Origin: Bacteroidota bacterium
GTDB taxonomy: Bacteria > Bacteroidota > Bacteroidia > Flavobacteriales > Flavobacteriaceae
Assembly (NCBI GenBank): GCA_012522045.1
Contig: JAAYLC010000112.1
Location: 1-33,912 of the forward strand
Direction: 5' to 3'
Length of the DNA: 33,912 bases
A program made the translations under genes and the position numbers. Under the pieces are notes generated by a model. It searched no databases. It was given only the letters and a program-made list of their open reading frames with translations, and had not been told where the DNA came from. This document shows, in pieces, positions 14,932-30,092 of the stretch (position 1 is its first letter; the number at the start of each line of letters is the position of its first letter).

Positions 14932-16359
14932 ATGCTTTTCAACTCTCTTACATTTCTTATTTTTTTACCTACGGTATTTATTATCTATTGGTTTTTTCTT
15001 CGTAACACTTTAAAAGGAAGAAATTTATTTTTACTCATCGCAAGCTATCTATTTTACGGTTGGTGGGATTATCGATTTTTAAGCTTATTGATTATCAGTA
15101 CGCTTGTTGATTTTGTTATAGCTCTTTTAATGGATAAAGAACAACGTGACAAAAGACGTAAACTTCTTCTCACTATAAGTCTGATTACAAATTTAGGACT
15201 GTTAGGTGTATTCAAATATTATAACTTTTTCATAGAAAATTGGGTAAATATGTGGGATGCATTTGGAGTTGAAATGCATGTTTCATCTTGGCGTATCATT
15301 TTACCTGTTGGAATCTCATTTTATACTTTTCAAACTTTAAGTTATGTAATTGATGTCTATCGAAAACAATTAAGAGCTTCAAATAATTTTATACAATTTG
15401 CTGCGTACGTGTCATTTTTTCCGCAGCTAGTGGCAGGTCCCATTGAACGCGCTACAAATCTGTTGCCACAATTTTCACGATTACACAAGTTTGATTATAC
15501 TTTGGCTCGAAGTGGAATTTCACTCATTGTGTGGGGATTTTTCAAAAAAGTAGTAATTGCAGATAATGCCGCATTTTTTGTTAATGAAATTTTCGCAACC
15601 CCGGAGGCGTTTTCAACCCCGGAACTTTGGATGGGTGCAATATTATTTGGTTTCCAGATTTATGGAGATTTCTCCGGATATTCTGATATTGCCATTGGTA
15701 CTGCTCGCTTATTTGGGTTTAGATTAATGACAAACTTTAAGTTTCCTTATTTTTCACGAGATATTGCAGAATTTTGGCGACGTTGGCACATCTCATTGTC
15801 AACTTGGTTTCGAGATTACTTATATATACCACTGGGAGGATCCAGAGGGAGTAAAAAAATGCAACTGCGAAATACAATGATTATATTTCTAGTGAGCGGA
15901 TTTTGGCATGGAGCGAATTGGACTTTTATAGTATGGGGAGCTATTCACGCACTTCTTTTCTTGCCTTTGTTATTAACTAACCGAAATCGTAAACATCTAG
16001 ACATTCAGCGTTTAAGCATCAGAAACTACAGCTCTATGATTTTGACATTTACATTGGTCACTTTGGCTTGGGTATTTTTTAGAGCTGACAATATAACTAT
16101 AGCAACTAACTACATTATAAGTATGTTTAATTTTAATGGTTCCTCTTTAGATTTATTCTTAAAAAGTCAGAAAATGATTCTTTTAACCGGAATTACTTTA
16201 TTATCCATATTTATAATGTTACGTTACGAATTTAGAACCTTTAAAAGAAATCAAGTTGAAATTTCTTTATCATCCCCTCACATTCTTTTTATAATGCTGC
16301 TAATATTAATGTTTGGAGTTTTCAAAAATCCTGCAGACTTTATTTATTTTCAATTCTAA
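14932..16359 (+). CDS. MBOAT-family membrane O-acyltransferase (AlgI-like)
   Basis: The 475-residue polytopic membrane protein starts MLFNSLTFLIFLPTVF, typical of the AlgI/DltB group. Family motifs include FFPQLVAGPIER (near 163), the long FWRRWHISLSTWFRDYLYIPLGG block (near 281), and FWHGANWTFIVWGAIHA holding the conserved histidines (near 325). About ten hydrophobic segments are visible. AlgI-type enzymes pass acetyl groups across the inner membrane for O-acetylation of exported polysaccharides, working with a periplasmic SGNH partner. The partner is the next gene, overlapping by one base (TAATG), so translation is coupled. It faces the glycosyltransferase cluster, suggesting that cluster's product as a substrate. 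Confidence 0.93.
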   Translation: MLFNSLTFLIFLPTVFIIYWFFLRNTLKGRNLFLLIASYLFYGWWDYRFLSLLIISTLVDFVIALLMDKEQRDKRRKLLLTISLITNLGLLGVFKYYNFFIENWVNMWDAFGVEMHVSSWRIILPVGISFYTFQTLSYVIDVYRKQLRASNNFIQFAAYVSFFPQLVAGPIERATNLLPQFSRLHKFDYTLARSGISLIVWGFFKKVVIADNAAFFVNEIFATPEAFSTPELWMGAILFGFQIYGDFSGYSDIAIGTARLFGFRLMTNFKFPYFSRDIAEFWRRWHISLSTWFRDYLYIPLGGSRGSKKMQLRNTMIIFLVSGFWHGANWTFIVWGAIHALLFLPLLLTNRNRKHLDIQRLSIRNYSSMILTFTLVTLAWVFFRADNITIATNYIISMFNFNGSSLDLFLKSQKMILLTGITLLSIFIMLRYEFRTFKRNQVEISLSSPHILFIMLLILMFGVFKNPADFIYFQF

Positions 16360-17276
16360 TGAAAGCGTTTCTAAAATATATCGGTTTTCTAAGTATTACT
16401 TTTTTAATACTCGCTTCGCTAATGTCATTTATAAGCCTATATTCTCTACGTACGTCAAGTTTATACAAACCTTCATTTATCGTTAATTCTGTTTCTGAAA
16501 ACAACTTTGATTATATTATTTTAGGTTCAAGTGTCGGACTGACAACACTCAATACAAAATTAATTGACTCAATTACAAGAATGAATGGAATTAATTTTTC
16601 CGAAGATGACACCGGATTATCAAGTCAATATTTAATGCTTCAACACACTTTATATGAAGGAAAAAAAATGAAATATTGTATTCTTGCTCCAGGATTGGCT
16701 GCATTGAGGAATAAAGATGCAAATATTGGTGGGAATGATTACCGATTTGTAATGCACGTAAATCGTGACTATATAGGAAATTATTATAAGGAAGCAGCAC
16801 CAAATTCTTTTGAAGCACGCATTTTATACACAACCAAATACTTGCCTTTTGTGGGAGTTTCTTATTACAATACCGAATTGTTTTTTCCTTCTATTCGTGT
16901 GCTTTTTGATAAAAAGAAACGAAATCGATTTGATGATAAAGGGAATTATACCTATCCACAGAAAAAAGCAAATCTTAAAGAAAAACCTTTGGATACGGTA
17001 AAAGTAACATTCGATCATACATACCTGAAAAAAATTGAAGCACTTTGTAAGAAAAACGATATTGAATTAATATATTATTTTTCGCCGGAATATCAAAAAT
17101 TTGTTTCTTATGAAAAACCGGAGAATTTACACGTCATCAATCATTCAAATATTTTTCAAGATGAACTCTCACTCTTTTATGATCCACTACATGTAAATAG
17201 TAAAGGAAGAGAAAAAGCTACGCTCCATTTTATTAAAGATTTTGAGCAATTCTATTTATCAGATTCAGGAAACTAA
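16359..17276 (+). CDS. SGNH-hydrolase-like partner of MBOAT (AlgJ/DltD-like)
   Basis: The 305-residue protein has an N-terminal membrane anchor (residues about 5-30, LKYIGFLSITFLILASLMSF) with the rest on the periplasmic side. YIILGSSVGLTTLN near residue 53 carries the nucleophile-type GSS motif, and FYDPLHVNSKG near residue 275 supplies the Asp-x-x-His pair of SGNH enzymes. These support an acyl-transfer or acyl-handling role on polysaccharide. Overall similarity to AlgJ/AlgX is not obvious by eye. The start overlaps the MBOAT stop, making a two-gene unit. It ends 22 bases before the stop of the oppositely transcribed glycosyltransferase, with no visible terminator between them. Confidence 0.75.
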   Translation: MKAFLKYIGFLSITFLILASLMSFISLYSLRTSSLYKPSFIVNSVSENNFDYIILGSSVGLTTLNTKLIDSITRMNGINFSEDDTGLSSQYLMLQHTLYEGKKMKYCILAPGLAALRNKDANIGGNDYRFVMHVNRDYIGNYYKEAAPNSFEARILYTTKYLPFVGVSYYNTELFFPSIRVLFDKKKRNRFDDKGNYTYPQKKANLKEKPLDTVKVTFDHTYLKKIEALCKKNDIELIYYFSPEYQKFVSYEKPENLHVINHSNIFQDELSLFYDPLHVNSKGREKATLHFIKDFEQFYLSDSGN

Positions 17277-17298: not shown

Positions 17299-18486
17299 TC
17301 AAATATCTGAGTAAAACGCTACAAATTCGCGTTCTTGTTTTTCTAAATTAAATTCTCTTCTGACGCGTTCTACAGCACGGGCGGCTATATCCTCTTTTTC
17401 TGATGAATTTAGTTGAATCACTTTCTGAAGTCTATCGGCAAGTAATTCGGGGTTGTTCTTTGGAACTACCCATCCCGTTTGTTTATGCAACACATTTTCA
17501 GACAATCCTTCGGCATTGCTGACAACACACAATTTCCCCATGGCCTGAGCTTCCAATACAGCATTGCAGAAACCTTCTTGATAGGAATATTGAATATAAA
17601 TATCTGAAAATTCCATGTGACTCTTTACTTCTTCATGAGAAAGATTGCCTAAAAATCGAATATGATTTGAAAGTCCTAATTTATAGACAGTAAAAGCAAT
17701 TCTTCGATACAATTGCCCACTTCCTATAATTGTATAAATAAAATCAATATTTCGAGATTTTAAAATTGCAAGTGCTTCAATAATTTGAATATAATTTTTA
17801 ATCCAGTGCAATCGACCTACCGTTAAAAAAGTAACCGTGTTTTTGTTTGAAATATGAATTGTAGATGTAAAAAGTTTAATATCTACTGCAGGCGTTATCT
17901 TCTCTACAGGGATTAAAGTGGAAAATCCGTGAGGAATTGCCAATTTTACCAAACCCTCCGAAATCGTATGAACTTTATCGACATATTTCCATAACTTGGT
18001 ATAACATCCCGGATTTTTAACAGGATAAACGGCAATGTCAAAACCTCTAAAACTTACAGCCATTCTTGCATTGATAGCTTTGGCTACAGTTTCGCTTCCA
18101 AGAGCCAACGTAGAAAATCCAAAATGCAACCAATCTACATCTGATTTTAATAAATGCGCATTTAAATATATTTTTTTAGCTATTTCTCCAAGGGAAGTTC
18201 CTTCTTTTCGTTCTAATTTCACATAGCGTTTCAATCGGCCTAAATGGGGAATCAAGCTGAAGTATTCTTTTGCAAAATAAAAAAGCTGTATTAACGGATT
18301 TCGGTGGACTTTAGACGCAAATTTTACCGGACACAATTCAAACGTATTTTCTCCACCACGGCAAAACAAGGTAATTTCAAACCCGTTTTTTTGTAGTCCT
18401 TTTATTTTACTTCGAAAAAATGTTTCAGAATATCCCGGCGGATTGGCAAGTACAAGTCCTATTTTCATCTTTTCCCGATGGTTCAT
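17299..18486 (-). CDS. Glycosyltransferase family 4 (GT-B)
   Basis: The 395-residue product has the GT4 two-domain layout. The N-terminal domain begins MKIGLVLANPPGYSETFFRSKIKGL. The C-terminal half has VTFLTVGRLHWIKN (about 221), IRFLGNLSHEEVKSHM and the nucleotide-sugar motif EGFCNAVLE (E-x7-E, about 308), then NAEGLSENV. It is cytosolic and would add a sugar to a growing glycan. The start at 18486 directly abuts the stop of the upstream sulfotransferase gene (TAA-ATG), and an internal ATG at 18468 is an equally good start. It is last in the leftward cluster. Its TGA stop is followed at once by TAG. Sugar and linkage cannot be read from the sequence. Confidence 0.9.
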   Translation of the reverse strand: MNHREKMKIGLVLANPPGYSETFFRSKIKGLQKNGFEITLFCRGGENTFELCPVKFASKVHRNPLIQLFYFAKEYFSLIPHLGRLKRYVKLERKEGTSLGEIAKKIYLNAHLLKSDVDWLHFGFSTLALGSETVAKAINARMAVSFRGFDIAVYPVKNPGCYTKLWKYVDKVHTISEGLVKLAIPHGFSTLIPVEKITPAVDIKLFTSTIHISNKNTVTFLTVGRLHWIKNYIQIIEALAILKSRNIDFIYTIIGSGQLYRRIAFTVYKLGLSNHIRFLGNLSHEEVKSHMEFSDIYIQYSYQEGFCNAVLEAQAMGKLCVVSNAEGLSENVLHKQTGWVVPKNNPELLADRLQKVIQLNSSEKEDIAARAVERVRREFNLEKQEREFVAFYSDI

Positions 18487-19344
18487 TTACTTTCTGTTGG
18501 TAAATTCTCTTTCATAACTTTTAATCTGAAATATGTCCAAATAGTGATTGATTACTTCGTATTCCTGATTTAAAAAATGAGGTTGTTTTGCATCTTTATT
18601 TACAATTTTACTCTTCGGATGTGTTTTACTAGAAGGCACACGGTAGCGGGACTCCAGATTGGTTAACGGCTCTAAATTAAAATGATTACAAACTTCTCTA
18701 AAAAGATTAATATCCTTTATCAGCATCTCATATTTTACAGTTTGTAACGGAACCCCCGGTATTTGTTTAATCTCGAATGCATCACAATTTTCGATACACC
18801 AACGAATTGTCAAGGCTTCGAGAGGTTCATAAGAAGAGTTGGAAAAAGTAAATCCATACCTATTTTTTAAAATAGCGGTAACTTTTTCTTGATTCTTAAA
18901 GTGCTCCAAATTATACAACCATGGAAATTTGACACGGGATTGGGATAACAAGGTATCATATGGATTTCTGATAATCGTTATTGTAGGCATTTTCATGGTT
19001 CCATACATAAAATTTCCTCCCAAACTTCCTCGGACCATTTTGATAATAAATTTTTTGGGAATAAAAGGCCACAAATGACGTTTCCATTTACGATTGCTGT
19101 TCTGGGCAATCCAGTCATTGTCAACGCGATTTGAAAAAACTTTACGCAAATATTTTTCAGCTTCAAAACTGTTCTCTTCAGTGAGATATTGATCGGCAAT
19201 CAGTTTTCCTTTTGAGGTATTAAATTCATGTTCGGGTTCAAACAACATCCGATAACGATGTTGTTGAGCAATTAATTCGGAAAACCAACTGGAACCACTT
19301 CTCGCAGATCCGAGTATTAAAACATGATTCTTATAAACTTTCAT
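18487..19344 (-). CDS. PAPS-dependent sulfotransferase
   Basis: The 285-residue product has both PAPS-binding motifs of the cytosolic/Golgi-type sulfotransferase superfamily. The 5'-phosphosulfate loop LGSARSGSSWFSEL is at residues 11-24, and the 3'-phosphate loop IIRNPYDTLLSQ is at residues 124-135 (Arg126, Ser134). It would move a sulfuryl group from PAPS to a hydroxyl on an acceptor. Neighbouring glycosyltransferases point to a glycan or glycolipid precursor. It overlaps the upstream GT4 gene by 14 bases and abuts the downstream one, so all three are translated together. No PAPS synthesis genes are in the window. Confidence 0.9.
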   Translation of the reverse strand: MKVYKNHVLILGSARSGSSWFSELIAQQHRYRMLFEPEHEFNTSKGKLIADQYLTEENSFEAEKYLRKVFSNRVDNDWIAQNSNRKWKRHLWPFIPKKFIIKMVRGSLGGNFMYGTMKMPTITIIRNPYDTLLSQSRVKFPWLYNLEHFKNQEKVTAILKNRYGFTFSNSSYEPLEALTIRWCIENCDAFEIKQIPGVPLQTVKYEMLIKDINLFREVCNHFNLEPLTNLESRYRVPSSKTHPKSKIVNKDAKQPHFLNQEYEVINHYLDIFQIKSYEREFTNRK

Positions 19345-20428
19345 ATAACGCTTCTCTCGATTTTATAAATTTTTCATAACTGTATTGGCGAACTACTTTT
19401 TCACGCATTTTTCTTCCTATTTCCTTCCGATTCGCTTCCGACATCTGTGCATACTTTTCCAAAAGCATACTTAATTCAGAAACATTTTCTGATTCGAAAA
19501 TATTTTCTTCAAATCCTTTTAATATATCGACAATTCCCGCCACCCGTGAACCAAGAACCGGTATTTCCATAGCCATGGCTTCCACAGGCGCCATAGGCAT
19601 TCCTTCGCGTTTTCCCTCATTTTTTGTGGGAATAACAAAAACATCTGCAACCGATAAATATTCTTGAACATTCATCTGTTTTCCGGTAAATATGATGTTG
19701 GAATTGTCTTTATATTTTTCTTTTAAATTTTTCACATAATCCGTTCGGTCATCTCCTACCAAAAAAAGTTTCCAATCAGAGATTTGAGAACGGATCATCG
19801 CTTCGGTTAAAATCTCAATTCCTTTTACCGGTACCATATTCACAACAGAAATTACCACAAAGTCTTGAGGTGAAATTTGATATTCAGAAATAATTTTTTC
19901 ACTTTTAGGCTGAGGAGCGTATTCATCCGTATCCAAACCAAGCGGCATATATACAGCATTTATTTTAGAATCCGCTGGAAAAAATTCTTCCATCATAGAT
20001 TCATTTATGGCAATAACCTTAGTACTTAATTTGGATCGGTAACGCCAGGCTTTGTTCCCCCAGCCCATCGCTTTTTTTGTATAAATAAATTTTATTCCGG
20101 CCAATTTTGCGGCAAGCGGTTCTGAAAAATCAGAACTCCAATGCCACGAATGAATTAAATCCCAATTGTGTTTTTTAAAAAATTTGACGACTTTCCACAG
20201 TCGAAAAGGAAAAGTGAGCAACGGTTTATATTCAGTTTCATAAGGAAATATATGAATTGGCACACCCAAAGATTCTATTTTCTTATAAAAAGCTCCTTTG
20301 GTATTTTTAACCAATATTTCAGGTTCAAAACGGTTTTTATCAATGCCCTGAATCAAATCATATACTACTTTTCCACTCCCGGCAGTATCAAAATTTGGAA
20401 TGGAATAAAGAATTCTCCTTTTTTTCAT
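19331..20428 (-). CDS. Glycosyltransferase family 4 (GT-B)
   Basis: The 365-residue product starts MKKRRILYSIPNFDTAGSGKVVYDLI, with the glycine-rich acceptor-side loop of GT4 enzymes. The N-domain contains LIHSWHWSSDFSEPLAAKLAG. The C-domain has VISVVNMVPVKGIEIL (about 194) and the E-x7-E motif in EGMPMAPVEAM (about 282), then VLGSRVAGIVDIL. It likely acts on the inner face of the inner membrane. It lies 21 bases downstream of the hexapeptide acyltransferase gene and overlaps the sulfotransferase gene by 14 bases. The donor sugar is unknown. Confidence 0.9.
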   Translation of the reverse strand: MKKRRILYSIPNFDTAGSGKVVYDLIQGIDKNRFEPEILVKNTKGAFYKKIESLGVPIHIFPYETEYKPLLTFPFRLWKVVKFFKKHNWDLIHSWHWSSDFSEPLAAKLAGIKFIYTKKAMGWGNKAWRYRSKLSTKVIAINESMMEEFFPADSKINAVYMPLGLDTDEYAPQPKSEKIISEYQISPQDFVVISVVNMVPVKGIEILTEAMIRSQISDWKLFLVGDDRTDYVKNLKEKYKDNSNIIFTGKQMNVQEYLSVADVFVIPTKNEGKREGMPMAPVEAMAMEIPVLGSRVAGIVDILKGFEENIFESENVSELSMLLEKYAQMSEANRKEIGRKMREKVVRQYSYEKFIKSREALYESL

Positions 20429-20449: not shown

Positions 20450-21034
20450 TCAGTTGATTGTTTTTATAATTTTTGCAGGATTTCCTGCCACCACACTATT
20501 CGAAGGCACATCTTTAACCACAACTGCACCGGCTCCGATAATGACATTATCACCAATGGTTATTTTTCCGATAATAACCGCATTGGCACCTACTGTCACA
20601 TTGTCCCCAATGGTAGGTATCATCGTGTTGTCATTATTTTTATTTCCAATGGTAAGACCATTTCTAAATTGAAAATTTTCCCCAATTGATTTGGCATTGA
20701 TAACCGTTGCATAAGGATGATAGCAAGTTAATCCTCCTTTAATTTTTGTGCTTCCAAAAATTTTACAAAGATAATCTTGCTTCATAAAATAGTTGCGTAA
20801 GGATAATGTTTTCCCTTTTGTGCGATAAAAAAAGATAAATGCATACTCCGGATAATACCTCATTAAATGTTCAAATTTATCACGAACTGTTTTGTTTCTT
20901 GAAGTGCATCCGCGCACAGTGTACGTTTGTTCGATGTCTTTTATAATAGTCGAATTTCCTTCAACATAATTAGAATACAGCCTTTTGATTATTATTTTTT
21001 GACGAAGAATATTAAATATCTTTCTCGGTTTCAT
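20450..21034 (-). CDS. Hexapeptide-repeat acyltransferase (serine acetyltransferase/WcaB-like)
   Basis: The 194-residue product has an alpha-helical N-terminal part (about 1-85). A left-handed beta-helix with hexapeptide repeats follows, from [15 protein letters not shown] to [16 protein letters not shown] and [14 protein letters not shown]. It closes with [13 protein letters not shown], typical of the CysE/WcaB-type O-acetyltransferases that use acetyl-CoA. In polysaccharide clusters such enzymes acetylate sugars in the cytosol. The start overlaps the stop of the GT2 gene by one base (TAATG). It ends with TGA, and TAA follows three codons later in the same frame. A true serine acetyltransferase is less likely given the neighbours. 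Confidence 0.85.
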
Positions 21035-22014
21035 TAGAGATAATGTTTCATGATTTTATATAAGTAAATTTTTAACAAGAACTTAGACGGAAATAATACA
21101 AGAATTCCTATCAATAACTGTAAAACAAATGGAAATTTTAAAGGTTGAATGTCTTTCAACAATTTTTTCTTTAATTTTTTGCGTTCATTAAATCCTTTTG
21201 TTTCTATTATAATTCGTGGAACGGAACTGTATATTTTATGCTTTAATATTTTTCCGTATTCTTTTTCCTCCGGATGTTGAAGATAAAAAGGGATATGTGA
21301 ATAAATAATCCGTGGCCACTGCATTGACGCTCTGCTTTTTGATGCTTTAACCTTATCGGTTATGGATTCACCGTGTTTCAGATATAAATAAACGTATTTG
21401 TCTATGAATGCAATTTTAGACGTCATTCCCAGTTGAATGTCCAAAGCTGTATCCTCCCCCAATCGTAACCTATTATCATACTTTCCTATATTTAAAAAGG
21501 TTTCCCTTCTATAAAGAAATGCAGGAGGCCCAACAACGGAACTTAAATCTCTAAACCATTTTAAACCCCAATAAGGTTTTGGTTTTAAGATAATCTCATT
21601 ACTTTCGTCTAAATCAGAACGGTTTATATCTGAAATTGGTAAACTAGATTTATACATTTTACCAAAAGAAGCGTCAATGGATTTGTCATTGATAAGTACA
21701 GAACTTAAATCTTCCAATGTAGTATCAAACAATTGATCGTCAACATCATAAAAATAAACAAAATCACCGGATGATTCATCAAAACCTTTATTTCTCGCCG
21801 CGGCTGCACCTTGAACCTTCTCTTGAAAAACTTTAACTCGGGAGTCGATTTCAGCCAATTCTTTTGCCATTTTCAAGGAAGTATCTTTGGAATTGTTATC
21901 TACAAAAATAATTTCTAAATGGAGGCTTACAGTTTGTTTACAAATGAAATCATAAGCTTGATTCACAAATTTTTCAGCATTATAAAGCGGTATAATGATG
22001 CTGATGGAACTCAT
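21034..22014 (-). CDS. Glycosyltransferase family 2 (GT-A)
   Basis: The 326-residue product begins [22 protein letters not shown], continues with [13 protein letters not shown], and has the region [30 protein letters not shown] corresponds to the metal-binding DxD position (about residue 96). This is the canonical GT2 N-terminal domain. The C-terminal 100 residues are basic and end with a hydrophobic stretch ([19 protein letters not shown]), perhaps a membrane anchor. It sits between the asparagine-synthase-like gene (49-base gap) and the acyltransferase gene (one-base overlap). Donor and acceptor are unknown. Confidence 0.92.
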
Positions 22015-22063: not shown

Positions 22064-23461
22064 TTAAGAATTTTTATCTACAAATATTTCTTTCCACAAT
22101 GCCAAAGTCAATAACATACTGACAGGATGTGAAAAATAAACATCATTGTTATTTTTAAAACTATTGTAAAATCGTGTTACAATTTCTTTGGGTACAAGGT
22201 CATAAAAAGAAGGAGCAAAAATTCGTTCTTGCAACTTTAAATCATTTTCATGACCTACAAATTGCAATTCCCAATTTCGTTGGGTATATTTTTTTCCTAT
22301 TTTCTCAAGTGTCACGCGTTTTGCTTTATTTAAAACACGATATGGCAAATTATAAGGCGTTCTGTTTTTGTGGTAATTGTATAAATTAAATGGTTTTTGT
22401 GCCTGCCAAGTAATTTTAGCCACTTTAGGATTCTGAGATTTTATATACGCAATTTGGATTTTTCTGTCGGCTAAATACTCCTCCGGGATTTCACAGATAA
22501 ATTGGCACATTCTGTCATCATAATAAGGCGCTTCGATGGGACTTGTTGCTTCAAATATTCCGAAATTACTGTTTGTCCAGCGTACGGCTCGTGTCATGCT
22601 TTTGTAGGCGCGCATTTTTGCACCTAAATGATTCTCAATCGGAATTGAATCCCAAATTTCTTGAACCCGAGAACACAGATAACTTTCAAAATCGCAATCC
22701 AATTCCCAAGCTTCCCACAAAGCTTCAGCCAATTCTTTTCCTCCGCGTACAAGAATGTCGTTCATCACAACATCTACCGCATTTTCATTGGTAAGATGCT
22801 CGGGAGCAACTTTGTCAAACAACACATCGCCCCAATGTCCCAAAGTAAAAACACCTTTCATTTTTCTGAATTCATCGATAACTCCCATTTGGCGCGGATG
22901 TGTAAAATCAGAATAACAACCGTTGATTTTAGCCAATTCTTCAATTTTATCCCACAAATAACCGGGTTGAATCGTCATATCTCGGTATTCATAACCCAAA
23001 ACTTTGGCAATTTTCTTGGAAATTCCACCTTCTTTGTATCCATTTTTAAATGAATAACTGTAAGAAATAATCGGATTATTTAATGTAGCATACGCGACAG
23101 CTTGCGTTCTGCTGTCAAGTCCGCCGGACAAAGGCAATAGAACGGTTTGGTCTCCTGCTTGTTCTTTACAAATCTGATGGAACAATTCTGTGAAGTCAGA
23201 AACCGCTTGTTCGAATGTGATGTTTTTGGGTTTATAATACCATTGAAACCAAGGTTTTGATTCAATCCAATAGCCTTCATCATCGATTTTATTAATAGTT
23301 CCTGGAGGAAGTGCTTTTAAATCTTTCCAATGCGTATCGGAGCCTAAAAAATAACCGATTGCGGCAAAAATACACAAGGCTTTATAGTCAGGTTCATGAT
23401 TTTCTTTAACCTTTACAATGTGGTGATGCAGAGGAAGAATTGGAACTTTTATGGTTTCCAT
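22064..23461 (-). CDS. Asparagine-synthase-like protein lacking the glutaminase active site
   Basis: The 465-residue product has the PP-loop ATP-binding motif LLPLSGGLDSRTQA near residue 110 and the downstream asparagine-synthase fold (LGHWGDVLFD near residue 207, SPIEAPYYDDRM near residue 310). Asparagine synthase B needs Cys2 and a full N-terminal Ntn glutaminase domain of about 200 residues. Here only about 90 residues precede the synthase part, without an N-terminal Cys, and they resemble only the end of that domain (YFLGSDTHWKDLKALPPGTI). It would adenylate a carboxylate and use free ammonia, another amine or an unknown partner. Position at the head of a glycan cluster suggests amidation of a uronic acid or an amino-acid substituent. 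This is inference. Confidence 0.8.
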   Translation of the reverse strand: METIKVPILPLHHHIVKVKENHEPDYKALCIFAAIGYFLGSDTHWKDLKALPPGTINKIDDEGYWIESKPWFQWYYKPKNITFEQAVSDFTELFHQICKEQAGDQTVLLPLSGGLDSRTQAVAYATLNNPIISYSYSFKNGYKEGGISKKIAKVLGYEYRDMTIQPGYLWDKIEELAKINGCYSDFTHPRQMGVIDEFRKMKGVFTLGHWGDVLFDKVAPEHLTNENAVDVVMNDILVRGGKELAEALWEAWELDCDFESYLCSRVQEIWDSIPIENHLGAKMRAYKSMTRAVRWTNSNFGIFEATSPIEAPYYDDRMCQFICEIPEEYLADRKIQIAYIKSQNPKVAKITWQAQKPFNLYNYHKNRTPYNLPYRVLNKAKRVTLEKIGKKYTQRNWELQFVGHENDLKLQERIFAPSFYDLVPKEIVTRFYNSFKNNNDVYFSHPVSMLLTLALWKEIFVDKNS

Positions 23462-23648
23462 TTTATGATGTTAGTTAGCGCTGGTTGCAAAATGGTGGTA
23501 TAGATATAAAGAGTTCAGAAATTTTTATTAGAAAATACGTAACCTTTTAAAGTAAGCTGGAAATTAATGGATTTATTCACCGGAAACTTTTTCAATTCAA
23601 CTCTGAAAAATTTATGTTTTTATTAAGGAAAATAGTCAAAAGAGATGG

Positions 23649-23701
23649 TACATTTGCGCTTGACAATTTTGTCAAACATAAAAGTCAAACAATTATGTCA
23701 A
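23649..23701 (+). promoter_or_regulatory. Promoter and likely operator of the TetR-controlled efflux operon
   Basis: TACATTTG at 23649-23656 is an exact -7 match, placing the transcription start close to 23660. Over it lies the inverted repeat TTGACAA-TT-TTGTCAA (23660-23675). GTCAA boxes recur at 23671, 23684 and 23697, exactly 13 bases apart, with another GTCAAA at 23635. The last box overlaps the ATG at 23695. This is the expected arrangement for autoregulation by the TetR protein encoded next, but binding is inferred. Confidence 0.6.
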
Positions 23702-24297
23702 TACAAAAGAAAGACGATGTCACCTATGAGCTGATAATCAAAACAGCTAAAAGACTCCTTTTTAAAGAAGGAAGATTTAATGTAACTACACAAGAAATTG
23801 CCGATGCTGCAGGTATTAACAGAACATTAATCAACTATTATTTTAGATCGAGAGATGCACTTTTTGAACTCGTGCTTCAAAACGCAGTTGAAGAAGAAGA
23901 AAAACGAAGAGAAATGATTGTTTTCTCAAATTTACCGATTCGGGAAAAATTAGAAACATTCATTGACTATTATTTTGAACAAGCTAAAAAATATCCTTAT
24001 CGCGAAGTTTATATTGTTACTCAGATGAACAGTGAATCCATTTGTAAGTTGAACAATAAAGATCATATAAAGCGATTGACTGAGAAGTTTTTTTTGGAGT
24101 TGGAACACGAGATGGAAAAAGGAAATATTCAAAAAATGGAACCCATTCAATTTGTTCTCAATTTTATTTCCATGCTTATTTTACCGGTGTGTATGCGTCC
24201 CCTGCTACAAAATAGTTTTGACTTAGCAGATGAGGGCTACGACAACATATTGGCGAATCGAAAGGAAGTTATCTTAAAATCCATTTTTAAAAATTAA
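23695..24297 (+). CDS. TetR/AcrR-family transcriptional regulator
   Basis: From the ATG at 23695 the product is 200 residues. It has a TetR helix-turn-helix near residues 24-47 (FNVTTQEIADAAGINRTLINYYF) followed by RSRDALFELV, then a variable ligand-binding domain. An upstream ATG at 23614 would add 27 residues, but that region holds the -7 element and operator-like repeats, so 23695 is preferred. The gene is first of a four-gene operon for an RND pump (24-base gap to the TolC gene), so it is most likely a repressor released by a pump substrate. The ligand is unknown. The stop is TAA. Confidence 0.9.
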   Translation: MSIQKKDDVTYELIIKTAKRLLFKEGRFNVTTQEIADAAGINRTLINYYFRSRDALFELVLQNAVEEEEKRREMIVFSNLPIREKLETFIDYYFEQAKKYPYREVYIVTQMNSESICKLNNKDHIKRLTEKFFLELEHEMEKGNIQKMEPIQFVLNFISMLILPVCMRPLLQNSFDLADEGYDNILANRKEVILKSIFKN

Positions 24298-24321
24298 ATC
24301 AACAATCAAACGGAAATTTAT

Positions 24322-25680
24322 ATGAAATTTTATTCATTTAGACAGAAAATCTTTTTTGTTGCCTTACTTTCTTTGTCATTCACTTTTTATGAGGGAACGG
24401 CACAAGAAAAAATGACTTTAAAAGATGCGGTCAATTATGCGTTGGAAAATAAAGCAGATGCAAATAAAGCCCGTCTTGACGTAGAAAACAGTGAACATTT
24501 AATCGGAGAAGTTCGGTCAAGAGCGCTTCCTCAAATCAACGCATCGGGAAATCTAATGTATAATGCAATTTTACAAGAAATGGCCATGCCCGGTGACATT
24601 ATAGGAATGCCCGGACAGACGTTATTGGTTGCTTTTGGACAAAAATGGACGGCTATCGGTGGTGTGCACCTGTCTCAGAACCTTTTTGATTATTCGGTGT
24701 TTACAGGTTTAAAAGCAGCAAAAACTACACGAGAGTTTTATAAAATCAATGAACAGTTAACTCAAGAACAAGTCATTGAAGCGGTTGCTAAAAATTATTA
24801 TCAAATTTTCATTACACGTCAAAAGCTAGAAACTATAAAGCAAACTTTGGAAAACACTAACAAGGTTAAAAACACGGTTGAAGGATTGTTTGAAAACGGT
24901 TTGGCAAAAAAGATTGACTTGGATCGTATCAAAGTAACGATTGTAAACTTGGAATCGGCTTTGAAACAACTTGAAAACGCAGCTGTTCTTCAGGAAAACT
25001 CACTCAAATTCCTTATCGGAATGCAAATCGACACACCGATTGAATTGGTTGAAGAAAACCTTGAAATGGAAATCACACCGGTGTTGCAAGACGCGCCTGA
25101 CGTAAAATCATTGACACAGTTTCAGTTATTGGAAACCCAAAAGCAACTTTTGGAATACAATAAAGAATCTATTAAAGCTGCCTACTACCCTACGCTATCT
25201 TTAAGTGCCAATTACAGTTATCAAGGATTGGGTGACAAATTTCCAATCGACGGAAAACCTGCCGATGGCGTATATTGGACAGATTATTCTACGATTGGCT
25301 TAAACCTGAACATTCCCATTTTCAGCGGTTTCCGTACACGTTCATTGATTCGTCAGGCGCAAACCCAATTGGATGTTTTGGAAGAAGATATGAAAGAAGC
25401 CGAATTGGCTTTAAATTTTGCTTATGAAAATGCGAAAACGCAAATTAATAACAATGTCATCACCATTGAAAATCAACGGGAAAACGTAAAGTTGGCGCAG
25501 GAAGTTTTAGACAATACTCAAAATAATTACCTCAACGGATTAGCTACACTTACGGATTTATTAGAAGCAGAAAATGCATTGGCGGATGCAAAAAACAATT
25601 ATTCAAATGCACTCTTAGAATATAAAGTAGCTGAAATTGAGCTAATTAAATCAAGAGGAGAATTAGATACTTTAAAATAA
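24322..25680 (+). CDS. TolC-family outer-membrane efflux channel
   Basis: The 452-residue product has a signal peptide ending near residue 27 (SFTFYEGTAQ) and two structurally repeated halves typical of outer-membrane efflux proteins. The first half begins MTLKDAVNYALENKADANKARLDVENS; the second contains LNLNIPIFSGFRTRSLIRQAQTQLDVLEEDMKEAELALNFAYENAKTQI. A coiled-coil-rich pattern and the NNYLNGLATLTDLLEAENALADAKNNY block support the call. It would form the trimeric outer-membrane exit duct for the pump encoded next, with the adaptor as bridge. It is cotranscribed with the TetR and pump genes. Confidence 0.94.
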   Translation: MKFYSFRQKIFFVALLSLSFTFYEGTAQEKMTLKDAVNYALENKADANKARLDVENSEHLIGEVRSRALPQINASGNLMYNAILQEMAMPGDIIGMPGQTLLVAFGQKWTAIGGVHLSQNLFDYSVFTGLKAAKTTREFYKINEQLTQEQVIEAVAKNYYQIFITRQKLETIKQTLENTNKVKNTVEGLFENGLAKKIDLDRIKVTIVNLESALKQLENAAVLQENSLKFLIGMQIDTPIELVEENLEMEITPVLQDAPDVKSLTQFQLLETQKQLLEYNKESIKAAYYPTLSLSANYSYQGLGDKFPIDGKPADGVYWTDYSTIGLNLNIPIFSGFRTRSLIRQAQTQLDVLEEDMKEAELALNFAYENAKTQINNNVITIENQRENVKLAQEVLDNTQNNYLNGLATLTDLLEAENALADAKNNYSNALLEYKVAEIELIKSRGELDTLK

Positions 25681-25718
25681 TCAACCTTAAATTTTAATCA
25701 AAAACCAACATCACTTTC

Positions 25719-25738
25719 CAATTCTCATTTGAGAATTG
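25719..25738. repeat. Perfect inverted repeat between the TolC and adaptor genes
   Basis: CAATTCTCA at 25719-25727 and TGAGAATTG at 25730-25738 form a perfect 9-base dyad with a 2-base spacer, starting 38 bases after the TolC stop and ending 26 bases before the adaptor ATG. No T-run follows, so it is not a standard terminator. It could be a protein-binding site or an mRNA processing hairpin. Confidence 0.6.
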
Positions 25739-25764
25739 AATTGAGGTCAAAAAACAAATTAAAA

Positions 25765-26826
25765 ATGAAAAAAATAATCTATACCTTAATTGCCATAGGC
25801 CTTATCGTTTGGGCAGGTTTTATCTTGGTCGGCAACAAGAAAAAAATGGAAGAGGAAACTGCCATTGTAGCGCAACAAAATGAATTTATTACCGTTCGCG
25901 TAGATACCGTAAAAACTGAAGTGGTGCACCAAGCGTATCGCGCCAACGGAAATTTTGCACCTTTACAAGATTTAAAATTGGCTTCTGAAAGGGGCGGTCA
26001 AGTAGTTCAAGTTCTCGTAGATGAAGGCGCAGAAGTTCGTGTTGGTCAAACTTTGGCAATTATCAAAGCTGATTTACAATCCATTGAATTGCAAAATGCT
26101 GAAGCTGCTTATCAAACAGCTAAAAAAGATGCACAGCGTTTTGAAAATGCATTTGAAACCGGTGGTGTCACGCAACAGCAACTCGATCAGATACGACTCC
26201 AACTTCAATCGGCAGAAGCACGATTAAATCAAGCAAAAATTACGGTTGGTGACAGTCATGTAAAATCTACTATCAATGGAATTGTAAACAAAAGACACAT
26301 CGAACCCGGAACTGTGGTTGGTCCCGGCACCCCTCTTTTTGACGTGGTCAATGTTTCTAAATTGAAATTAAATGTAAATGTTTCTGAAAGTCAAGTTGCC
26401 GCTATCAACACCGGGGATGAAGTTAGAATAAAAGCAAGTGTTTATCCGGATAAAGAATTCAAAGGAAAAATTACATTCATAGCAGCAATGGCCGATAGTT
26501 CCCTAAACTTCCCGGTAGAAATTGAAGTAATCAACAACACTGAAAATCAATTACGAGCAGGTATGTACGGCTCCGTACTCTTCTCATCTCAAGGCGAAGA
26601 CATTCCGGCGATTAAAGTTGTTCCCAGAGATGCTTTTGTGGGGAGTGTGAGTAATAATGAAATTTTTGTTGCTAAAGATGGTACGGCACAATTAAGAAAA
26701 GTTGTTGCCGGAAGAAATTTCGGTGATAAAGTTGAAATTCTGGACGGATTAGAAACCGGAGAAATCGTAATCACAAGCGGGATCATTAATTTAACCGACG
26801 GAGCGAAAATCGCCATTGTAGAATAA
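25765..26826 (+). CDS. RND efflux periplasmic adaptor (membrane fusion protein)
   Basis: The 353-residue product begins MKKIIYTLIAIGLIVWAGF, a membrane anchor. The lipoyl-type domain VLVDEGAEVRVGQTLAII (near 75) is interrupted by a coiled hairpin, QSIELQNAEAAYQTAKKDAQRFENAF to LQLQSAEARLNQAKI. The second lipoyl half (STINGIVNKRHIEPGTVVGPGTPLFDVV) and beta-barrel and C-terminal domains follow. I start at ATG 25765. An upstream ATG at 25729 would add 12 residues and lie inside the inverted repeat at 25719-25738. The protein links the RND permease to the TolC channel in the periplasm. Confidence 0.93.
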   Translation: MKKIIYTLIAIGLIVWAGFILVGNKKKMEEETAIVAQQNEFITVRVDTVKTEVVHQAYRANGNFAPLQDLKLASERGGQVVQVLVDEGAEVRVGQTLAIIKADLQSIELQNAEAAYQTAKKDAQRFENAFETGGVTQQQLDQIRLQLQSAEARLNQAKITVGDSHVKSTINGIVNKRHIEPGTVVGPGTPLFDVVNVSKLKLNVNVSESQVAAINTGDEVRIKASVYPDKEFKGKITFIAAMADSSLNFPVEIEVINNTENQLRAGMYGSVLFSSQGEDIPAIKVVPRDAFVGSVSNNEIFVAKDGTAQLRKVVAGRNFGDKVEILDGLETGEIVITSGIINLTDGAKIAIVE

Positions 26827-26843
26827 AGAAAAGAATTCAGAAA

Positions 26844-26901
26844 AGAGAAAAGCTGCTTTCTATAGGGTAATTAATTTCATCTTGCCGGTTTCCTTTTCTC
26901 T
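26844..26901. repeat. Inverted repeat between adaptor and permease genes
   Basis: AGAGAAAAG at 26844-26852 pairs perfectly with CTTTTCTCT at 26893-26901 across a 40-base loop, and flanking AAGAA/TTCTT adds partial pairing. There is no T-run, so it is not a terminator. It lies in the 98-base gap before the permease gene and may affect relative expression within the operon. Confidence 0.45.
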
Positions 26902-26924
26902 GTTCTTAAAAAAATAAAAATCAT

Positions 26925-29900
26925 ATGAAATTAGCAGAAATATCTATCAAGCGTCCCACGATGATAGTCGTGATGTTTGCGATATTAATATTGGGTGGAT
27001 TGTTTTCATACACCAAATTAGGTTATGAACTTATACCGAAATTCGAAGTGAACGTGATCTCCATTTCCACGATTTATCCCGGAGCTTCACCATCTGAAAT
27101 TGAAAATACGGTTACTAAAAAGATTGAAGATGCGATCTCTTCTCTCGAAAACGTAAAGAAAATTATCTCTCAATCCCATGAGAGTGTTTCTTTGGTGATG
27201 ATTGAATTGAATACCGGAGCCAATGTGGACTTTTCTTTAAACGAGGCACAGCGGAAAATTAATGCCATTCTTGCCGATTTGCCTGAAGATGCCGATCCGC
27301 CTTCGCTTATTAAATTTTCGATGGATGACTTGCCGATTATTACAATTGCCGCTACAGGAGATATGGACGAGGTTGCATTTTTTGACTTGTTAGACAAAAA
27401 AATTCAGCCGATGCTGTCCCGTGTAGAAGGTGTGGCACAAGTAAATCTAATTGGTGGTGAGGAACGTGAAATTCAGGTGAATATCAATCAGCAAAAGTTA
27501 GAAGGTTTCGGATTAACTGTTCCTGAAATCCGACAAGTTGTCTTGACTTCAAATTTAGATTTCCCCACGGGAAATGTGAAAACCAGAGAAAACACAACGC
27601 TTATCCGTCTTTCCGGAAAATACAAAGATGTTGAAGAACTTGAGAATTTGGTAATCAGAGAAATGGACGGCATTCAAATCCGTTTGAAAGATGTGGCTGA
27701 AGTTCGCGATACGCAAAAAGACGTTGAAAAGTTGGCAAGACACAATCAGGAAAATGCCATCTTAATTCAAGTTTTAAAACAATCCGATGCCAACGCCGTG
27801 GCGGTTAGTGAACTGGTGCGAGAAACTGCTTTGGAAATTGAAAACGATTACAAAGCTCAGAATGTAAAATTAAACATTGCAAATGATACGAGTGAGTTTA
27901 CTTTAACAGCAGCCAACAACGTAATTTTCGACATCTTTTTTGCTGTTTTTCTCGTGGGTGCCGTTATGTTGTTGTTCCTTCACAGTTTACGAAATGCCTT
28001 TATCGTAATGGTTACGATTCCGGCATCCTTGATTGCGACTTTTATCGGAATTTATTTTATGGGCTTCACGCTAAACTTGATGAGTTTGGTAGCGCTTTCA
28101 TTGGTAGTCGGGATTTTGGTGGATGATGCGATTGTAGTATTGGAAAATATTCACCGACATATGGAAATGGGTAAAAATAAGGTGCGAGCTGCCTATGACG
28201 GTGCATCTGAAATAGGTTTTACGGTGGTTGCCATTACCCTTGTTATTATTGTGGTATTCTTACCGATTACACTCAGCGGTGATTTGGTTGCCAACATCAT
28301 CAAGCAGTTTGCAGTTACCGTAATGATTGCTACCGCATTTTCATTTCTCGCTTCGTTTACGCTTGTTCCTTGGCTTTCTTCACGGTTTGGAAAAATCGAA
28401 GAAGTGTCTGACAAAAACCTGTATGGTAAATTAATTCTATGGTTTGAAGGGAGAATTCAAGCGTTTACTCACTGGATTTCAGGGTTGTTGGGATGGGCAT
28501 TAAAAAGCACAAAAAATAAAATAATTACGCTTGGTGTAGCTACATTGTTGTTCTTTGGATCTTTTGTGTTGGTTGGTGCAGGTTTTATTGGGGGTGAATT
28601 CTTTCCGAGAATGGATAAAGGAGAGTTTTTGGTGCAATTGGAACTTCCAAAAGACGCTTCTCTGGAACAGACAAATTTCTTGACTCAAAAAGCGGAACGT
28701 TTCTTAAGACAAAAGCCTGAAGTCGTCAATATGATTACTAAAGTTGGGGAAACCAGTGGCGGATTTGGATCAACGCAAGCCACAGCTTATATGTCTGAAA
28801 TTTCTGTAGAGTTAGTAGATAAATCCGAGCGAGAAGACAATACATTTATCTACGGTGCAAAACTAAAAAGAGAACTCCAAGAATATCTGGTAGATGCAAA
28901 GGTTAAAATTGTTCCGTTGGGAATGATGGGTGCAAATGATGCGCCATTGCAACTGGTTGTCGTTGGTACAGACCTTGAAAGTGCTATGGAATTTGCTCAA
29001 AAAGCAGAAGCAGAACTCTTGAAAATTGCCGGAACATCGGAAGTGGAACTTTCTGTTGAAGATGGAAATCCTGAAATTACGGTAGAAGTTGACAGAGATA
29101 AAATGTCTCGTCTCGGGCTGGATTTAGGAACGGTGGGGATTACCATGCAAACTGCATTCAGTGGGAATACCGATGCCAAATTCCGAGCAGGCGAGTATGA
29201 ATATGACATCAATATTCGTTATGACGAGTTCAACCGTTCCAATATTGACGATGTTCGAAATATTATGTTCGTAAACAACCGCGGAGAAACCGTCCGATTA
29301 AGTCAATTTGCAGATGTTCAACAAGGTTCGGGTCCCAGTGTATTGGAACGAAGAGACAAAAGCCCATCAGTTACCGTAAAATCTCAAGTTATTGGAAGAG
29401 CTGTGGGTGATGTTGCCACGGAATGGGAAGAAATTTTCTCACAAATCGAGCGACCTGCAGGAGTAAGCTATGTTTGGGAAGGAGATATTGGAATGCAACA
29501 GGAAGGATTCGGTACTTTGGGAATTGCCCTAATTGCTGCAATTATCCTTGTTTATCTCGTAATGGTTGCACTTTATAACAGTTACGTGCATCCGTTTGTA
29601 GTATTGTTTTCTATTCCACTTGCGCTTATTGGAGTGATGATAATTCTGGCATTGACCAACAACTCTATCAATATTTTTACCATATTGGGTATGATTATGT
29701 TGATTGGACTCGTGGCAAAAAATGCAATTTTGATTGTAGACTTTACAAATATAAGACGGGCAGCCGGAGAAGACATAAATACAGCACTTATTCAAGCAAA
29801 CCACGCAAGGCTTCGTCCGATTTTGATGACAACCATTGCCATGGTATTCGGAATGGTTCCGATTGCAATTGCATCAGGAGCTGCTGCCGAACTTAATAAC

Positions 29901-30092
29901 GGACTTGCTTTGGTAATTATCGGAGGGTTAATTTCCTCGTTATTCCTCACGCTGGTTATCGTTCCGGTAGTGTATTCTGTATTTGAAAGCATCACGCAAC
30001 GATTTACTAAAAACAAAGAGAAAATCGATTATGCCTCCGAAATGGTAGCAGAATATAAACCCATTGAGATTAAAGAAGAGTTTGAAAACTAA
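26925..30092 (+). CDS. RND-family efflux permease (HAE-1 type)
   Basis: At 1055 residues the product matches AcrB/MexB-type inner-membrane drug/proton antiporters. It begins MKLAEISIKRPTMIVVMFAILILGG (TM1). The first large periplasmic loop follows. The TM4 motif LVVGILVDDAIVVLENIHRH has the proton-relay aspartates at residues 400 and 401. The second half has GVSYVWEGDIG before TM7, and LGMIMLIGLVAKNAILIVDF carries the conserved lysine. The C-terminal tail is acidic. With the TolC and adaptor genes upstream it forms a complete tripartite pump. Substrates cannot be read from the sequence. The gene is followed by a convergent bidirectional terminator. Confidence 0.96.
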   Translation: MKLAEISIKRPTMIVVMFAILILGGLFSYTKLGYELIPKFEVNVISISTIYPGASPSEIENTVTKKIEDAISSLENVKKIISQSHESVSLVMIELNTGANVDFSLNEAQRKINAILADLPEDADPPSLIKFSMDDLPIITIAATGDMDEVAFFDLLDKKIQPMLSRVEGVAQVNLIGGEEREIQVNINQQKLEGFGLTVPEIRQVVLTSNLDFPTGNVKTRENTTLIRLSGKYKDVEELENLVIREMDGIQIRLKDVAEVRDTQKDVEKLARHNQENAILIQVLKQSDANAVAVSELVRETALEIENDYKAQNVKLNIANDTSEFTLTAANNVIFDIFFAVFLVGAVMLLFLHSLRNAFIVMVTIPASLIATFIGIYFMGFTLNLMSLVALSLVVGILVDDAIVVLENIHRHMEMGKNKVRAAYDGASEIGFTVVAITLVIIVVFLPITLSGDLVANIIKQFAVTVMIATAFSFLASFTLVPWLSSRFGKIEEVSDKNLYGKLILWFEGRIQAFTHWISGLLGWALKSTKNKIITLGVATLLFFGSFVLVGAGFIGGEFFPRMDKGEFLVQLELPKDASLEQTNFLTQKAERFLRQKPEVVNMITKVGETSGGFGSTQATAYMSEISVELVDKSEREDNTFIYGAKLKRELQEYLVDAKVKIVPLGMMGANDAPLQLVVVGTDLESAMEFAQKAEAELLKIAGTSEVELSVEDGNPEITVEVDRDKMSRLGLDLGTVGITMQTAFSGNTDAKFRAGEYEYDINIRYDEFNRSNIDDVRNIMFVNNRGETVRLSQFADVQQGSGPSVLERRDKSPSVTVKSQVIGRAVGDVATEWEEIFSQIERPAGVSYVWEGDIGMQQEGFGTLGIALIAAIILVYLVMVALYNSYVHPFVVLFSIPLALIGVMIILALTNNSINIFTILGMIMLIGLVAKNAILIVDFTNIRRAAGEDINTALIQANHARLRPILMTTIAMVFGMVPIAIASGAAAELNNGLALVIIGGLISSLFLTLVIVPVVYSVFESITQRFTKNKEKIDYASEMVAEYKPIEIKEEFEN

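Follow-up and report, generated by a model that had tools for sequence, protein, structure and literature searches.

AsnB-fold enzymes and amidated glycans

In enzymes of the AsnB fold, ATP turns a carboxylate into an acyl-AMP, which in AsnB is attacked by ammonia. In the beta-lactam and carbapenam synthetases, which keep an N-terminal Ntn-like domain, a substrate amine attacks the acyl-AMP. Cys2-less relatives also use a substrate amine.

In P. gingivalis the uronamide depends on WbpS, according to excerpts of PMC7468200, and those of PMC6025236 propose it as the uronamide maker in H. pullorum. In Bordetella, the b-Cool locus combines UDP-GlcNAcA/GalNAcA synthases with a putative asparagine synthase and leads to GalNAcA-amide residues (excerpts of PMC12407052). 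Tannerella forsythia carries a 605-aa AsnB beside wecB/wecC, and the glycan of that cluster holds a ManNAcA amide; in the excerpts of PMC6120980 the authors propose another role for this AsnB. A Vibrio polysaccharide bears a glycine amide at C6 of a gulose-type sugar (PMC11637428, in part).

The gene described here, ASN, lies in a stretch of Bacteroidota DNA of 33,912 nucleotides, here called the window. ASN shares with the WbpS type (eps_aminotran_1, TIGR03108) the PF00733 domain and a setting in glycan loci. Candidate UDP-HexNAcA genes also lie in many ASN loci, although the dehydrogenase among them is nearly universal in genomes without ASN as well. The WbpS type is glutamine-dependent with a Cys2 domain, whereas ASN is without that domain and has the motif LGHWGDVLF. 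The closest solved fold is that of the hydroxyamidotransferase TsnB9 (7ylz), but TsnB9 keeps Cys2, the Ntn domain and a Glu at the place of AsnB Glu348, none of which is found in ASN. The carbapenam and beta-lactam synthetases (1q15, 1jgt) also fold as ASN does, with chains of 503 and 513 aa against 465 aa. Carbapenam synthetase, like ASN, has a residue other than Glu at the Glu348 place, Tyr where ASN has His. E. coli AsnB (1ct9) and human ASNS share with ASN the fold, the PP-loop and the Asp at the Asp351 place; ASN differs from both in the absence of the glutaminase domain and Cys2, in His for Glu348, and in falling outside TIGR01536. ASN seems to act in the manner of the AsnB-fold amide ligases, and its probable product is an amide-linked capsule sugar, formed by a route that has yet to be described. 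Among the new findings, the one with most weight is that ASN is paired with a single glycosyltransferase, GTa.

The gene block and its neighbourhood

ASN belongs to a six-gene block on the minus strand, running from 23461 down to 17299, on which a further pair of genes converges. A gap of 49 nt follows ASN, and the later genes are at most 21 nt apart or overlap. The features are as follows.

22064..23461, minus strand: ASN, a short Asn_synthase-fold gene of 465 aa without glutaminase domain (ORF call, Pfam, alignment, predicted fold)
21034..22014, minus strand: GT2 glycosyltransferase, 49 nt downstream of ASN
20450..21034, minus strand: hexapeptide-repeat acetyltransferase-like protein (best NCBIfam models EpsC, WcaB and CysE, all below cut-off)
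19331..20428, minus strand: GTa, a GT4 glycosyltransferase that co-occurs with ASN (Pfam, locus comparison)
18487..19344, minus strand: putative sulfotransferase (weak PF00685 match, 16.3 bits, short of the cut-off of 22)
17299..18486, minus strand: GTb, a GT4 glycosyltransferase, final gene of the block (Pfam, locus comparison)
14932..16359, plus strand: MBOAT O-acyltransferase, converging on the ASN block (Pfam, locus comparison)
16359..17276, plus strand: partner of the MBOAT gene, no Pfam match; presumably AlgJ-like, a label given from position only

Loci were compared in a set of 47 (the window, 6 named and 40 other genomes), with mechanical ORFs of at least 90 aa. A sulfotransferase-type gene occurs in 18 of them and an APS kinase in four. 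MBOAT homologues, found in 28, mostly run in the same direction as ASN, and the converging pair at 14932-17276 of the window suggests that this region was inverted or rearranged locally. Relative L043 has a 780-aa protein in which the C-terminus of ASN is fused to a GT2. Examples typed in the wider loci resemble Wza- and Wzc-like exporters, a sugar-1-phosphate transferase and Wzm/Wzt-like ABC transporters, all of them below the name cut-offs.

A sequence-only reading of the window had placed ASN first in its operon. This is correct for the window, where an ORF running the other way begins at 23614, yet the next upstream ORF is codirectional in 40 of the 47 loci. The first place in the operon is thus not typical of the family, and gene order carries no weight as the pointer to function that it had been taken for.

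Elsewhere in the window, positions 13076-14740 encode an Omp28-like protein whose C-terminus carries a type IX secretion signal (Por_Secre_tail). Positions 23614-30092, divergent from the ASN block, hold a TetR-like regulator and a TolC/adaptor/RND-type efflux set, as judged from the translations.

A synthetase half without its glutaminase

The sole Pfam match of ASN at E<=0.001 is PF00733 Asn_synthase (30.6 bits, cut-off 21), and membership rests on this gathering score together with the SGGxDS PP-loop. The PP-loop SGGLDSR occupies residues 112-118, LGHWGD residues 207-212 and RNWELQ residues 395-400. Residue 2 is Glu, not Cys, and GATase_6/7 (PF13522/PF13537) gave no Pfam match. The Asn_synthase fold, the intact SGGLDS loop, the missing Cys2 and the lack of a glutaminase of its own, all proposed from the letters of this minus-strand gene, are thereby borne out. 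An in-frame glutaminase upstream is excluded by a stop codon in the same frame, 9 nt ahead of the ATG. Reading from stop to stop gains only His-His-Lys ahead of the Met, showing that ASN truly begins without a glutaminase domain.

ASN scores 35.7 bits against the NCBIfam model of glutamine-hydrolysing asparagine synthase, TIGR01536 (cut-off 267.1), and both the N-terminal Cys nucleophile and the glutaminase domain of that type are missing. TIGR03108 gives 20 bits (cut-off 816.9) and the macrolactam cyclase model NF033561 13.9 bits (cut-off 300). The lasso-peptide cyclase model NF033535 gives no match at E<=1, and none of the defence-system models matches. By the criteria tested, ASN is neither AsnB, WbpS nor a known cyclase, and no tested family claims it. 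Of the two findings that the sequence-only reading had named as fatal to itself, a glutaminase upstream in frame is absent, and as to close similarity to true AsnB, ASN itself lies far below the AsnB cut-off.

The same reading had seen an Ntn domain reduced to about 90 residues. The length is roughly right, since 111 residues stand before the PP-loop, but they are not a small Ntn domain; the domain is absent. In a profile-profile comparison with 17 Cys2-bearing AsnB-type proteins from related loci (cluster c7), ASN residue 23 pairs with residue 176 of the first c7 protein, and the Pfam glutaminase match in the c7 neighbour extends only to residue 164. The 12 AsnB-fold rows of a structure comparison align only from chain residue 114-136 onward. 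Together these alignments show that ASN starts where the AsnB glutaminase domain ends, so that the glutaminase lobe is gone while the linker and the synthetase half are kept.

The AlphaFold2 model of ASN (pLDDT 94.9, pTM 0.92) is closest to TsnB9 (7ylz; Z 25.7 over 396 residues, 3.2 A, 15% identity). Next come carbapenam synthetase 1q19 (Z 20.5, 333 residues, 3.7 A), human ASNS 9b6c (Z 19.6, 316 residues, 3.7 A), beta-lactam synthetase 1m1z (Z 18.8, 299 residues, 3.3 A) and E. coli AsnB 1ct9 (Z 17.7, 309 residues, 3.7 A). Other PP-loop ATPases give Z below 10.

In the profile alignment LGHWGD of ASN lines up with SGDGGD of c7, with His209 opposite c7 Asp363. E. coli AsnB has SGEGSDEVF at the equivalent motif, holding Glu348 and Asp351. 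The Glu348 place is Glu in AsnB, ASNS and TsnB9, and His209 in ASN, with His in all 46 aligned family members. In carbapenam synthetase, the one of the two lactam-type synthetases aligned here, a Tyr stands opposite the ASN His. We take Glu348 of AsnB, and the Tyr of the carbapenam and beta-lactam synthetases at the equivalent place, to have catalytic roles. The place varies among Cys2-bearing proteins of these genomes too, being Asp in the ten c7 proteins listed and Ala in L114, which weakens it as a clean marker of chemistry.

Conservation and spread of the ASN family

The alignment of 46 ASN homologues has 50 invariant columns. Identical in all 46 are SGGxDSR (apart from x), LGHxGD, R284-A-x-K287, W352, P357 and RNxELQ. 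The place of AsnB Lys449 is less strict, with K in 23 and R in 16 of the 46, and in the more distant L093 a Ser replaces the Arg of RN-ELQ. Since SGGxDSR, Asp212, Arg284 and Lys287 are invariant, the conserved columns argue for a working nucleotide site. The 47 ASN proteins of the first locus set are all distinct, none more than 85% identical to another.

Forty-three of 299 Flavobacteriaceae genomes carry ASN, in one copy each, all at 449 bits or more. A second ASN query recovered these 43 genomes again, none below 542 bits, and its next best match reached only 36 bits. ASN is thus no decayed gene but a member of a sharply bounded family. Winogradskyella eximia and Bizionia arctica (L004 and L005) are among the named carriers. 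In a wider search, 9 of 395 Bacteroidota genomes gave ASN matches at E<=1e-20: four in Flavobacteriaceae (the window's own genome included), three elsewhere in the class and two in a distant family, of which 21 genomes were covered. Phage records held no ASN homologue at E<=1e-5, and plasmid records gave five weak matches, two in haloarchaea and three in Streptomyces clavuligerus. In the latter (replicons NZ_CP045850.1, NZ_CP027859.1 and NZ_CP086233.1) ASN residues 15-118 were matched at 33.7% identity (E 2e-7), in a stretch for which the table lists no gene. Among the matches listed, titles and abstracts of open-licence PMC papers held nothing on the ASN family.

Pairing of ASN with GTa

Every one of the 47 loci has GTa on the ASN strand and no more than four ORFs from ASN. 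GTa is the next gene in 17, the second in 10, the third in 15 and the fourth in four, and precedes ASN in one. Seven further loci were read; five have GTa, among them both loci with the half-way forms of ASN described below, and GTa was not seen in the other two, L093 and L094. At E<=1e-50 GTa was found in 40 of 43 carrier genomes and in none of 256 non-carrier Flavobacteriaceae. The genome search at this threshold misses about 7%, and the three carriers it missed hold GTa within two ORFs of ASN.

For comparison we took c4, a further glycosyltransferase from the same locus. Its link to ASN is almost as tight as that of GTa: 42 of 43 carriers have c4, against 4 of 256 non-carriers. In three of the c4-bearing loci without ASN (L122, L123 and L124) GTa is missing too in the stretch read; in the fourth c4-only genome, c4 sits on a short contig that begins just before c4. 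ASN and GTa are thus gained and lost as a pair, while the rest of the locus is conserved. In L122:7867-10303, L123:7358-9782 and L124:8625-11099 two other genes stand upstream of the GTb-type genes. They are weakly like the GT4s of the locus or cluster c29 (26-32% identity) and possibly represent an alternative cassette.

ASN and GTa have not diverged in parallel. The Spearman correlation is 0.117, with 28 of 300 permutations as high; it is 0.249 with one GTb type (0/300), 0.351 with the other (2/300, n=13) and 0.041 with c4. The non-parallel divergence may reflect shuffling between strains.

Glycan precursors, ammonia and asparagine in carrier genomes

In 27 of 50 genomes the contig that carries ASN also encodes a UDP-sugar dehydrogenase no more than 50 kb away. 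Of these dehydrogenase stretches 20 were examined, and 17 include a TviC-like epimerase cluster. One dehydrogenase example typed as TviB-like UDP-GlcNAc dehydrogenase at 558.4 bits (cut-off 592), and one epimerase as TviC-like at 320 bits (cut-off 760). A TviB-like gene at E<=1e-130, never above the curated cut-off, was found in 42 of 43 carriers and, among genomes without ASN, in three of the four that have c4 and 30 of 33 others. The uronic-acid pathway was accordingly rejected as an ASN-specific signal; the TviB-like dehydrogenase is widespread among flavobacteria as a whole. The window's own genome has the dehydrogenase on another contig (L100), with c4 and its neighbours on L126.

The sequence-only reading had suggested looking for a separate amidotransferase partner, and none is fixed across the ASN loci. 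The Cys2-bearing AsnB-type gene c7 adjoins ASN in 8 of 47 loci and lies in the stretch read in 17. Cys2 is invariant in the 17 c7 proteins; the one scanned has GATase domains, and those listed have SGDGGDELF. The c7 neighbours pass the TIGR01536 cut-off, and three Cys2-bearing neighbours score 348-385 bits against TIGR03108, below its cut-off of 816.9. In the window's genome GATase_7 matches only GlmS and PurF (both judged from sequence) and the Cys2-less L003. Judged from the AsnB-type and GATase_7 genes covered here, a fixed glutaminase partner is unlikely.

A protein above the TIGR01536 cut-off is present in 38 of 48 carrier genomes. Six of the 38 have their sole such protein close to ASN, leaving 32 of 48 with one elsewhere and 16 without one away from the ASN locus. 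AsnA was not found in any of 12 carriers searched. In the window's genome, which is 93% complete, neither AsnA nor an AsnB-type protein above the TIGR01536 cut-off was found.

Proposed reaction and alternatives

The sequence-only reading had pointed to carboxylate activation on a sugar or sugar-linked amino acid. Activation on a sugar is plausible, and the tie to one glycosyltransferase is the better clue. We propose, tentatively and with slightly less than even confidence, that ASN is an amide ligase that uses ATP but not glutamine, has a capsule uronic acid as its substrate and works together with GTa. In its favour stand the anatomy and conservation of ASN, its predicted fold, the GTa tie, the one ASN-GT2 fusion, the dehydrogenase near ASN in many genomes, and the uronamide glycans of loci that combine UDP-HexNAcA genes with an asparagine synthase or WbpS. 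By analogy with the family, the PP-loop domain would bind ATP and convert a carboxylate, with C6 of a uronic acid as the likeliest candidate, into an acyl-adenylate. Since ASN has no glutaminase domain, the attacking amine would reach it directly rather than as channelled ammonia. A small amine or amino acid is somewhat more likely to be the nucleophile than free ammonia, because the domain is gone and His replaces Glu348; this is the weakest step. In step with GTa, ASN might prepare the GTa donor or modify the residue that GTa has just added.

Several results count against this amide ligase: the TviB-like gene is not specific to ASN, ASN and GTa show no parallel divergence, GTa is unseen in L093 and L094, the Lys449 place is variable, and so is the Glu348 place in Cys2-bearing proteins. 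The presence of c7 in 17 of 47 loci would fit a shared ammonia source there. If the proposal is true, ASN plus GTa would be a gene marker for amide-modified capsules in flavobacteria, and the GTa tie makes the acceptor or donor directly testable. A bolder form of it seems possible, if doubtful as a whole: an undescribed two-gene Bacteroidota capsule cassette, in which a His-based AsnB-fold ligase that has shed its glutaminase half couples an amine, such as an amino acid, to a uronic acid and is paired with a GT4 that builds or extends the residue, both genes moving as a unit into and out of a conserved locus.

ASN could instead be an ammonia-dependent uronamide synthetase with a WbpS-like outcome, supplied by free ammonia or by leakage from a neighbouring full-length AsnB-type enzyme. 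A glutaminase-dead AsnB still uses free ammonia, there are uronamide precedents with the UDP-HexNAcA pathway, and c7 lies in 17 of 47 loci, next to ASN in 8. We nevertheless judge this rather unlikely. Thirty of the 47 loci have no c7 in the stretch read, ten of 48 carriers, the window's among them, have no protein above the TIGR01536 cut-off, and where c7 is present it might form the uronamide without ASN. Ammonia is also made less likely by the Glu348 place, which is His in ASN but Glu in AsnB, ASNS and TsnB9.

The locus does not fix which partner bears the carboxylate, and the roles could be reversed, with ASN activating an amino or hydroxy acid and N-acylating a sugar amino group. Linking sugars with 2-N-seryl and 2-N-glycyl groups occur in Bacteroidota, but the available portions of PMC7468200, which describe them, assign such transfer to VimA, a putative N-acetyltransferase and not an AsnB fold. 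The sole aminotransferase (k12) among the typed neighbour clusters is in 5 of 20 dehydrogenase stretches, and we hold this reversal to be improbable.

Another PP-loop reaction, or no catalysis at all, for example a structural helper that holds GTa, would suit the tight GTa tie and the incompletely conserved Lys449 place. It has a slim chance given a 46/46 SGGxDSR (bar x) and the invariant Asp212, Arg284 and Lys287, as expected of a working nucleotide site. That ASN is a minimal ammonia-using asparagine synthetase is very improbable in spite of the missing AsnA and the 16 carriers, the window's genome among them, that lack a TIGR01536 protein away from the locus: 32 of 48 carriers have one elsewhere, only 43 of 299 family genomes have ASN, and glycosyltransferase-type neighbours are present in 54 of 54 loci read, in agreement with the glycan rather than asparagine role of the sequence-only reading.

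Half-way forms and other Cys2-less proteins

Two distant relatives of ASN retain a longer N-terminus.

L089 8926-10662: distant ASN relative, 578 aa from the MIADLL start
L090 8938-10677: distant ASN relative, 579 aa from the MIADLL start

Read from GTG, these ORFs encode 603-604 aa. In both, SGGLDSR, AHWGD and RNWEIQF are kept, preceded by an extended N-terminal domain that lacks Cys2. Its residues 67-140 can be aligned to the latter half of the AsnB-type glutaminase domain (a profile of two sequences 86% identical), while a Pfam scan of this N-terminal domain gave no GATase match. In an AlphaFold2 model of the distant relative almost all of residues 1-124 have pLDDT <50. In a quick tree of the synthetase part, L089 and L090 group with the short ASN forms (support 0.995) and the Cys2-bearing AsnB-type genes group together (0.978). 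The nucleophile would then have been lost first and the whole domain later. If the amide ligase proposal is true, an ammonia-channelling enzyme would in this order have become a stand-alone amide ligase. Plasmid records gave 23 matches to the distant relative. L089 also encodes, at 17684-19585, a 633-aa protein weakly like the AsnB-type neighbours (25%, 51 bits) and without SGGxDS.

Other Cys2-less proteins share SGGxDSR with ASN but keep a long N-terminal domain (575-639 aa in all); judged by motif, their Glu348 place is Leu or Gln, against His in ASN. Two are haloarchaeal 'asparagine synthase-related' proteins (WP_252490896.1 and WP_227356793.1; L129:6509-8389 and L130:6533-8452), which start MVG and carry SGGSDSR. 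The third, L003:835-2562, is a second AsnB-like protein of the window's genome, 575 aa long, which starts MAGIYG and carries SGGMDSR. The tree places the haloarchaeal pair and L003 with a support of only 0.326. SGGxDSR may be the mark of a wider Cys2-less class. The L003 protein adjoins a flippase-like gene, as judged from sequence, in another glycan cluster.
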